Shown here in pieces: positions 44,438 through 47,200 of a stretch of 64,000 bases of DNA. Numbering within the stretch: position 1 is the stretch's first letter; every line of letters starts with the position of its first letter. The stretch lies in assembly GCF_900129295.1 (NCBI RefSeq), contig NZ_FQUU01000005.1:1-64000 (forward strand). Reading direction: 5' to 3'. The notes under the pieces are model-generated. The model searched no databases and was not told the DNA's origin. It was given only the letters and a program-made list of their open reading frames with translations. The stretch comes from Flavisolibacter ginsengisoli DSM 18119. Its GTDB lineage: Bacteria > Bacteroidota > Bacteroidia > Chitinophagales > Chitinophagaceae. Position numbers and translations under genes: made by a program.

Positions 44438-44577
44438 ATGAAAATATTTCAATTCGTAACAGAAGCAGTTGGATGGCTCCAAATAATGGCTTCTCCCTTT
44501 GCCGCAGGACTTTTACTCGGGGGATAGTATACTTAGTAAAGAGGGATATTGTAGGACTTAGTATAGGTATTTACTTC
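44438..44577 (+). pseudogene. N-terminal remnant of a small membrane protein gene, interrupted by the RAYT unit
   Basis: ATG at 44438 opens 29 codons (MKIFQFVTEAVGWLQIMASP...) ending in TAG at 44525. Shifting frame near 44520 continues 'GIVYLVKRDIVGLSIGIYF' up to the left REP at 44578. Joined, these read like the first half of a common Bacteroidota small membrane protein ('FQFLIEAFGWLQI.ASP..IG..IG'). Behind the right REP (45234-45257) a short frame ends KKVIKKE and a TGA that overlaps the next gene's ATG, a candidate for the lost C-terminus. The match to the remembered family is my inference. Confidence 0.5.
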
Positions 44578-44611
44578 CCTCGCGTGTCTCCTGAAAGGGA
44601 CTCGCGGGTTT
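44578..44611 (+). repeat. Left REP palindrome of the RAYT unit
   Basis: Core gtctcctgaaagggactcgcg with a hairpin of GCG.GTC against GACTCGC around a central tcctgaaagg. It matches the reverse complement of 45200-45233 except at four positions near the left end and one in the right tail region. Confidence 0.8.
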
Positions 44612-44635
44612 CAGTTTGATGACGTAAATTGAATT

Positions 44636-45200
44636 ATGGCCATTGAAACTTCAGTTACATCGAAGGGGATATACTTCATAATATTTACCTGTCATAACTG
44701 GCTTCCATTAATAGATACCGCTGATGCCTATGCAGATGTATATAAATTCTTTGAAGTAATAAAAAGGGATGGGAATGACATAGTAGGATATGTGATCATT
44801 CCTAATCATTTACAAGAATACTTCTAAAAAGCTCAATACGATTATAGGTAATGGTAAAAGGTTCCTGGCTTATGATATAGTAAAAAAGCTACAACAGAGG
44901 AAAGAATTTGAGTTGCTGAATCTGTTAGCTTCAGTGGTAGAGCAAAAAGACAGGTCAAGGGGCAAGAAACATGAGGTATGGAAACCGGGATTTGATGTAA
45001 AAGAATGCAGGACAGAAAAGTTCCTGCTGCAAAAGCTCAATTACATTTATGATAATCCTGTAAAGGAGAAGTGGATGTTAGCTAAAGACAATGAAGCGTA
45101 TGATCATTCTTCCTGTCTTTTCTATTTTAAGAAGAAACATAGATTCTGTGAGGTAACTCATTATGAAGAAGTGCTGGATTGGGAGAATATGTACCAGTGA
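44636..45200 (+). pseudogene. Broken REP-associated tyrosine transposase (RAYT, Y1/HUH type)
   Basis: Frame 1 (44636-44827) reads 'KGIYFIIFTCHNWLPLIDTA' and 'VGYVIIPNHL', the start of the HUH domain, then stops. The other frame continues from about 44815 with 'KNTSKKLNTIIGNGKRFLAY', 'GFDVKECRTEKFLLQKLNYI' (catalytic Tyr region) and 'YDNPVKEKWMLA', ending 'EEVLDWENMYQ' at 45200. The break falls immediately after 'PNHL', where a second His of the HUH motif and a few codons are missing: a small deletion with frame change. Without HUH the protein cannot act. Confidence 0.82.
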
Positions 45201-45233
45201 AATCCGCGAGTCCCTTTCAGGAGACTCGCGGAG
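45200..45233 (-). repeat. Right REP palindrome of the RAYT unit
   Basis: Inverted copy of 44578-44611; hairpin GCGAGTC/GACTCGC with a 10-nt centre. Its left base overlaps the stop codon region of the transposase remnant. Confidence 0.8.
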
Positions 45234-45254
45234 GAAGAAAGTAATAAAAAAGGA

Positions 45255-45866: not shown

Positions 45867-46053
45867 TGAAAAAAGCAATTATTACAACAATTGTAAGCAT
45901 ATCAGTTATTCTTTTGTAATTATGGTTTATGCACTCGTCTATGCTGACCATGAAAGTTCATTCTGGAAGAACCGCCTTGTAATTGGGATATCATTTATGG
46001 TTTTGGCCGCCCTCTCTATAATTGTTGCCCGACGGTCCCGAACAGCAGCTTAA
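45867..46053 (+). pseudogene. Frameshifted small two-helix membrane protein
   Basis: ATG at 45867 gives MKKAIITTIVSISVILL and a stop at 45918. The adjacent frame then gives 'VIMVYALVYADHESSFWKNR' and a second helix 'LVIGISFMVLAALSIIVARR', ending at 46053. Adding one T in the run at 45909-45914 would join them into a 62-residue protein with two helices. Either a real mutation or a homopolymer error in the sequence explains it. No family was recognised. Confidence 0.55.
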
Positions 46054-46367
46054 TGAACCAATGCAGTTTAGAACTTTATCATTTGAGTTGGCAGCTAAGG
46101 TTCAGTAATCTCTTTCCCGATGAGTCACCGCAGCTATATCAAAATCTTTCTGCTGTGGACAACAAAACAAATAGCTGTAATTTGGACAGTTTGATCGCGA
46201 ACAGACTGCTTTTAGTCGGAAAGGCCAAAATATCACTTAAAAGCCAAACGCAAAATTCAAAGAAGCTAAAGTACGTTTATAAAAAGGATATTCTAGGTGG
46301 TGAACAAGGAACATTCTATTTCGGGAATAGTAAGGTTTATCAGGCTATCATCTTCCTGGGCGAGTAA
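46053..46367 (+). CDS. Hypothetical protein containing a REP half-site
   Basis: A 104-residue frame starting at an ATG that overlaps the previous stop (taATG). Residues about 19-27 are encoded by a 24-base sequence that recurs at the end of the deletion-derivative mobile unit (46719-46742). The C-terminal 'KKLKYVYKKDILGGEQGTFY' looks protein-like, but there is no domain, signal or homologue I can name. It may be a remnant. Confidence 0.35.
   Translation: MNQCSLELYHLSWQLRFSNLFPDESPQLYQNLSAVDNKTNSCNLDSLIANRLLLVGKAKISLKSQTQNSKKLKYVYKKDILGGEQGTFYFGNSKVYQAIIFLGE
46111..46134 (+). repeat. 24-base copy of the REP end of the 46.7-kb unit
   Basis: tctttcccgatgagtcaccg plus cagc is identical to 46719-46742. 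The second half of the palindrome (gactcatcgg) is not found nearby, so this is a half-REP or a donor/target-site copy. Confidence 0.65.
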
Positions 46368-46521: not shown

Positions 46522-46731
46522 ATGAAAAGACTTCTAACTTTATTTAGTTTAATAGGACTTACCACCTGTAATCAGTCAAATCCCAAGGTTGACACAAAGA
46601 CAATGGATTTTGGTGCATTTAGCGTTAGGACGCCTCAATCCTGGCAGCAAATCAAAGCAAGAGGCACTGACAGTTATGTTGGCAGAATTGCCATTGATGA
46701 AAAAGATACGCTAGATTTTCTTTCCCGATGA
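46522..46731 (+). pseudogene. Lipoprotein gene truncated by a REP-type element
   Basis: ATG at 46522 starts a lipoprotein: 'MKRLLTLFSLIGLTTCNQSN' with lipobox Cys at residue 16, then 'MDFGAFSVRTPQSWQQIKAR' and 'DSYVGRIAIDEKDTLDF'. At 46725 the REP palindrome begins and the frame ends three codons later in TGA, giving only 69 residues. The break in the middle of a folded-looking domain indicates truncation. An ATG further upstream in the same frame would add a stretch without protein character. Confidence 0.6.
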
Positions 46732-47005
46732 GTCACCGCAGCAGTAGGCTATCACTTTATGATATCCAGCGCGGGACTCATCGGCTGACTCACTTGTATC
46801 CTTCTTCCCTTTTGCTTTCTTTTCTCTTGATTGCAGTACACAAACCCAAAGCAAGAGCAGGCATTTATTTTATCACCTTTACCTGTTATAAATAGAGTTT
46901 TATCGGCGTGTTGCGGAGTAGGAGGAAAGGAAGCGGGAGGAACAGAATCGATGAGTCCCGCCAGAGAGCCTGGAGAAGCAAGATATTGCCTCGGTGACTC
47001 ATCGG
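46725..47005. mobile_element. Non-autonomous REP-bounded element with RAYT N-terminal remnant
   Basis: Two palindromic units in inverted orientation bound it: 46725-46784 (ccgatgagtcaccg ... cgggactcatcgg) and 46949-47005 (cgatgagtcccg ... cggtgactcatcgg). Between them, 46842-46895 encodes KPKARAGIYFITFTCYK and a stop, which is the conserved N-terminus of RAYT proteins ('GIYFITFTC'). The rest of the transposase is gone. It is therefore a deletion derivative, comparable to a MITE, and it ends the lipoprotein gene on its left. Confidence 0.7.
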
Positions 47006-47200
47006 AGAAGGAATAAGTAAAATTGTTAGAAATAAATAGACCGAAAAATACATCATTCCAGGAATGAAACTGAATGTTCCAATAAGAGAAAAGATAAACA
47101 AGACTAAAAACTCTTACCTTTTGAAATAAGCAATGAGTCTTTGCAACGGTGTAACTATTAACGAATAAGGTATAAACAAGAGTAAATGATATTTATAAAA
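47006..47200 (+). other. Leader region of the propeller lipoprotein gene
   Basis: 195 bases without a coding frame, between the REP-type element and the propeller gene. No hairpin or consensus promoter was recognised; it must contain the promoter of the downstream gene. Confidence 0.4.

Follow-up and report, generated by a model that had tools for sequence, protein, structure and literature searches.

A probable internally deleted RAYT cassette at a truncated lipoprotein gene of Flavisolibacter ginsengisoli

Introduction

RAYT-type enzymes are expected to recognise hairpins and to cleave single-stranded DNA beside the hairpin foot. The genes specifying them are mostly present in single copy, and they have not been observed moving (PMC8266576, PMC8049555). 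REPINs, non-autonomous elements that depend on a RAYT, are well described (Bertels and Rainey 2011, PMC3116915), and it has been proposed that they originated from the REPs flanking an IS200-like ancestor. Among the TnpAY1 subclasses, the sections of PMC6006769 on which we draw describe subclass 2.6 as occurring in Bacteroidetes, with atypical flanking hairpins, copies of which lie elsewhere in the genome; copy number is low, the mean identity between the copies within a genome being ∼41%.

The window analysed here is a stretch of 64,000 nucleotides from F. ginsengisoli DSM 18119, the genome of which (G000) comprises 4.68 Mb in 55 contigs. A first-pass annotation of the window had reported a MITE-like derivative of a RAYT cassette that truncates a lipoprotein gene. 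The results below indicate that this element, hereafter W, very probably arose by internal deletion from a RAYT cassette resembling the subclass 2.6 / group 5 REPtrons (as far as PMC6006769 is drawn on here) and would depend on a helper, and that the lipoprotein gene was probably broken by insertion after codon 66.

Results

Structure of W

W has a 281-bp core at 46725-47005, and extends over ∼46720-47011 when its pyrimidine 'feet' are included. The features of the locus are as follows (coordinates, strand, feature, evidence).

46522..46731, +, putative truncated lipoprotein gene of 69 codons, true homology reaching residue 66; 68% identity to a G009 homologue of 186 aa
46720..47011, no strand, W, the whole putative deletion derivative with its outer pyrimidine/purine feet; lipoprotein homology ends at 46719, unit-model matches
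46725..46784, +, left hairpin unit, CCGATGAGTCACCGC...GCGGGACTCATCGG; 5′ arm the same as that of the intact RAYT cassette
46785..46829, +, what is left of the 5′ untranslated region of the RAYT gene; alignment with C21:137757-138523
46830..46892, +, 21 codons left from the N-terminal end of the RAYT, with ATT in place of the ATG start; 86% identity to residues 1-21 in tblastn
46899..46948, +, frameshifted residual 3′ end of the RAYT gene; blastn alignment with the parent cassette (see below)
46949..47005, −, right hairpin unit, inverted; unit model

The two inverted units and the 164-bp spacer between them are as first annotated. A model of the hairpin unit, built from copies that blastn found, matched W at 46718-46786 (+) and 46946-47012 (−) with E values of 2e-18 and 3e-14, both units being among the 16 used to build it. 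Independently of the model, a blastn search of the genome with W returned 18 matches, the best non-self one spanning all 281 bp (a full-length second copy, E = 1e-43). As single-stranded DNA, W folds far more stably than shuffled sequences (z = −5.8). Simple shuffling of the stem is a weak test, since the longest perfect stem (10 bp) was no longer than the best one among 200 shuffled sequences; homology to other units provides a stronger argument against chance. The hairpin units of W are confirmed to be far beyond chance.

The stretch GIYFITFTC noted in the centre of W is present within 46830-46892, which reads IAVHKPKARAGIYFITFTCYK and matches the first 21 residues of an intact RAYT at 86% identity; the start codon is ATT where the intact gene has ATG. 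The claim that the centre encodes nothing else of the transposase proved wrong, since positions 46899-46948 align, frameshifted, with the final ∼50 bp of the RAYT gene.

Two further features were observed upstream in the window. A half unit consisting of foot and 5′ arm only, with the same sequence as the left end of W, lies at 46111-46134 (+), 608 bp upstream of W and within ORF 46053-46367. A second RAYT cassette with another hairpin type (CTCGCGTGTCTCCTGAAAGGGACTCGCGG) is located at 44573-45237, ∼1.5 kb upstream; it is full-length but broken, its RAYT frame being split into 44636-44827 and 44913-45200 by a break near the HUH motif.

The intact parent cassette and its class

Searching the genome for full-length RAYTs that share the N-terminus and palindromes of W, as the annotation had proposed, revealed one intact cassette of 767 bp (C21:137757-138523, minus strand, same contig as W). 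This is the sole intact relative of W in the genome and is referred to as the parent. It ends in a 25-bp inverted repeat (CTTTCCCGATGAGTCACCGCAGCAG) that matches the ends of W, and encodes an intact 202-aa RAYT (C21:137811-138416) with the motifs NHVH, WQ and YMHQNP, the stop codon of which falls within the right hairpin unit. Segment 175-281 of W shows 74% identity to parent 660-767 by blastn, and parent 172-659 is missing from W: ∼488 internal bp, or ∼160 codons, including both catalytic motifs (HUH and tyrosine). The 5′ arm of W is unchanged relative to that of the parent. Since overall identity is just 74-79%, the source of W was probably a sister copy of the parent rather than C21:137757-138523 itself.

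The parent protein scored above the cut-off for Pfam Y1_Tnp, and reached 68.6, under the cut-off of 80, for NCBIfam REP_Tyr_transpos. A PDB sequence search with the RAYT alignment gave no matches. Its predicted fold (pLDDT 88) was most similar in Foldseek to 4er8, a RAYT bound to a REP hairpin (E = 1e-6), followed by ISDra2 and IS608. The cassette thus combines the features of a RAYT / TnpAREP (class 2 TnpAY1), namely the HUH and Y-xxx-NP motifs, the Y1 fold and inverted REP flanks. Close matches to the protein come from Bacteroidota (Chitinophagaceae, Ferruginibacter, Ginsengibacter and others). Comparison of the motifs with Table 1 of PMC6006769, together with these close matches, suggests that the parent fits TnpAY1 subclass 2.6 / RAYT group 5: as in the REPtrons described in that part of the paper, the motifs are of the type NH[LIV]H, WQ and YIH[QN]NP (with YMHQNP for YIHQNP), the host belongs to the Bacteroidota, the hairpins lack GTAG, and hairpin copies are dispersed. 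Deletion derivatives and dispersed, nearly identical cassettes, both reported below, are not mentioned in the same part of PMC6006769.

W resembles REPINs in consisting of two inverted palindromes and in being non-autonomous and presumably moved by a RAYT in trans. It differs from them in retaining both ends of the RAYT gene in its 164-bp centre, whereas the spacer of a REPIN is short and free of transposase sequence, and in that each end is a long hairpin of about 59 nt; furthermore, the derivatives here number about seven, against hundreds of REPINs. The MITEs of DDE insertion sequences (Correia, RUP) are likewise internal-deletion derivatives that have ends in common with a full-length helper and need it; the W family differs in its expected HUH/Y1 chemistry, its hairpin ends, the absence of an expected target duplication and its low copy number. 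Like a MITE, W has ends in common with an autonomous element of its genome. IS200/IS605 elements and their miniature derivatives share the Y1 transposase fold and subterminal hairpins, but the ends of the W family are inverted copies of one unit, and the Y motif ends in NP, not Q. The annotation's view of W as a little-described kind of element was therefore too strong, RAYT-dependent non-autonomous elements being known as REPINs.

Deletion derivatives in the genome

The unit model detected 16 strong hairpin units in the 4.68 Mb, far from the high copy number typical of REPINs. Fourteen of them form seven inward pairs; the 15th has a degenerate partner and the 16th is single. In all, the genome contains the intact cassette together with seven derivatives, among which six different deletions are represented; further copies of the kind that the annotation suggested searching for are thus present.

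C21:137757-138523, −, parent pair, intact cassette
46725-47005 of the window, W pair, parent 172-659 missing
C6:84861-85147, C6 derivative, parent 185-647 missing
C35:157256-157635, C35 derivative, parent 106-517 missing
C10:145615-145988, C10 derivative, parent about 237-697 missing
C30:138768-139061 and C30:130331-130626, C30a and C30b derivatives, parent sequence between 59 and 709 missing, centre poorly aligned
C21:137353-137532, 176-bp element with degenerate second unit, parent 104-704 missing (1-103 joined to 705-767)
C21:130507-130574, single 16th strong unit

In the 176-bp element the entire coding sequence has been deleted, which brings it closer to a REPIN than W. The arms hardly vary among the units of this genome, so covariation within it is little informative; support comes instead from the differing stems of different cassettes (see below).

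The units might be a fixed repeat with a structural or regulatory role, for instance as a terminator, an RNA stabiliser or a REP-like site, and have nothing to do with transposition. Each unit does fold strongly (−12 to −31 kcal/mol) and roles of this kind have been attributed to REPs (PMC8266576), but nearly all of the units are arranged as inward pairs around RAYT sequence or RAYT remnants, which makes this explanation very improbable.

The preferred reading is that W derives from a mobile cassette. A RAYT, a single-strand HUH/Y1 nuclease, would bind the hairpins at both ends in trans, cut near the pyrimidine foot and move the DNA between the hairpins. Any deletion sparing both ends would then yield a passenger element in need of a helper, and continued deletion would lead to minimal REPIN-like doublets. 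Because its hairpin arms match those of the parent, we infer that W could still be mobilised by a RAYT. W may, however, have decayed in place: it would have arrived full-length, lost its middle where it stands and never moved as a miniature. We regard this variant of the preferred reading as having nearly an even chance. The deletion junction of W was seen once in the genome, with no second copy, a fact that counts against movement of W as a miniature and that decay in place fits equally well; the six deletions all differ, as independent decay predicts, and the broken cassette ∼1.5 kb upstream is a further point in its favour. Against it, the 5′ arm of W still equals that of the parent, and C30a and C30b share their internal structure and show 97.8% identity across 316 bp, their flanks being unrelated. 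Since this near-identical pair shares its structure and sits at unrelated sites, copying of at least one derivative must have followed its deletion. Thus the label 'MITE-like' is borne out with respect to the internal deletion and, for the C30 pair, to copying after deletion; W itself, with its unique junction, may have moved in this way or may have decayed in place. Most other pairs of copies are 70-80% alike, and there are few of them, so the activity of the family in this genome appears mostly old.

Some other features were seen near these copies. The C30b derivative adjoins a repeat-containing gene that appears to be without its start. The C35 derivative adjoins, at C35 157636-157695 (L004), a right-end hairpin resembling another RAYT type (CCGCGAGTGAATTGC...GAGACACGCGGAGGAAG), which suggests nested or adjacent insertions. 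At C21:130150-130580 (L007), the lone left unit is followed by RAYT-like 5′ untranslated sequence, and right after this comes the ATG of a gene whose beginning resembles a signal peptide; this gene may have acquired the RAYT promoter.

The truncated lipoprotein gene

The frame starting at 46522 has a lipobox-like start, and its residues 1-66 match a G009 protein of 186 aa at 68% identity; a similarly long homologue was found in G020. Homology to these full-length proteins stops at residue 66 (position 46719), directly before the CTTTC foot that begins at 46720, so the inserted DNA would start at ∼46720. This lies five bases to the left of the start first assigned, the bounds of the core being unaffected. 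The stop codon (TGA, 46729-46731) does fall inside the left unit, about two codons in rather than three. W, or a full-length ancestor of it, would accordingly have inserted after codon 66, breaking the gene, with the rest of the gene lost at insertion or later. Read most simply, the left boundary reflects insertion into the lipoprotein gene.

A different possibility is that the gene was truncated by a separate rearrangement, the breakpoint of which the element merely marks. The remaining ∼120 codons are absent beyond W, and a search of the window and the rest of the genome gave just a diverged, frameshifted paralogue; the genes around the locus show no synteny with G009; both observations would fit such an event. 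That homology should stop exactly at the first base of the foot is, in contrast, what insertion predicts, and a separate rearrangement is considered unlikely. Nonetheless, since the gene does not continue with its 3′ part on the far side of W, the insertion may not have been a clean one, and the description of an element landing in genes fits the left boundary. No orthologous W was found in 60 relatives, in which matches were limited to the conserved N-terminal stretch of other RAYTs, and no empty site was detected. The lack of an empty site, the failure of the gene to resume beyond W and the small number of copies (seven derivatives) all count against the preferred reading of W. The lipoprotein gene is probably a pseudogene, with modest consequences for the window. 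Its only paralogue found in the genome lies at C21:127381-127910 (L050) and appears frameshifted. The annotation had named two findings that would speak against it, namely no further copy of the element or its ends in the genome or in relatives, and lipoprotein homologues all 69 residues long; neither was made, because copies are present in the genome and the homologues reach ∼186 aa.

Related cassettes in other genomes

RAYTs 46-62% identical to that of the parent were found in G014, G009, G011, G061, G075, G024 and G098. The hairpins near their ends are inverted and have different self-complementary stems in a similar layout: a pyrimidine-rich foot facing outward at both ends, then a stem, with a 5′ arm GTC-T/A-CC and, in most, a 3′ arm GGGAC. 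The stem in G098 deviates from this layout, and the downstream unit was not found in G011. G075 contains three dispersed cassettes that are ∼97% identical, two deletion derivatives (about 187 and 155 bp) and one RAYT that a nested element cuts short. A close RAYT match was present in 47 of 295 sampled genomes of the family; among the matches listed, G075 alone has three near-identical copies, so whole-cassette amplification seems rare. In G009, minimal doublets that contain no RAYT sequence were found (about 140 and 125 bp), and these too are closer to REPINs than W is.

Between them, G000, G075 and G009 offer a cassette that is still intact, others that are partly deleted, one that has lost its entire coding sequence, and doublets, besides the copying of both a deleted form and whole cassettes. 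The intact and shrunken relatives illustrate how a RAYT transposon can decay into a helper-dependent miniature, and make REPIN origin and RAYT mobility testable in one lineage. The graded series from cassette through deletion derivative to doublet, together with whole-cassette copying, appears to be new relative to the papers compared (PMC6006769, PMC3116915, PMC8266576 and PMC8049555). More tentatively, and at somewhat less than even odds in our view, group 5 RAYT cassettes in these Bacteroidota may still move whole rather than being domesticated single-copy genes, with internal deletion repeatedly giving rise to helper-dependent miniatures and finally to REPIN-like doublets. If this is true, the graded series seen in present-day genomes would testify directly to the origin that has been proposed for REPINs.

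No consistent target sequence could be fixed; the G075 copy on C32 is at a contig end, and its junction is possibly an assembly effect. Several left ends in G075 are preceded by T (TAATTCCC). The same genome has dense arrays of tandem and nested hairpin units around its near-identical RAYT cassettes (L106, L108, L109, L110, L113), and a short element that has another centre is seen there repeatedly. In G009, the cassette at G009:C2:389227-389986 (L054) has two right-hand units with a RAYT C-terminal-like coding stretch between them.
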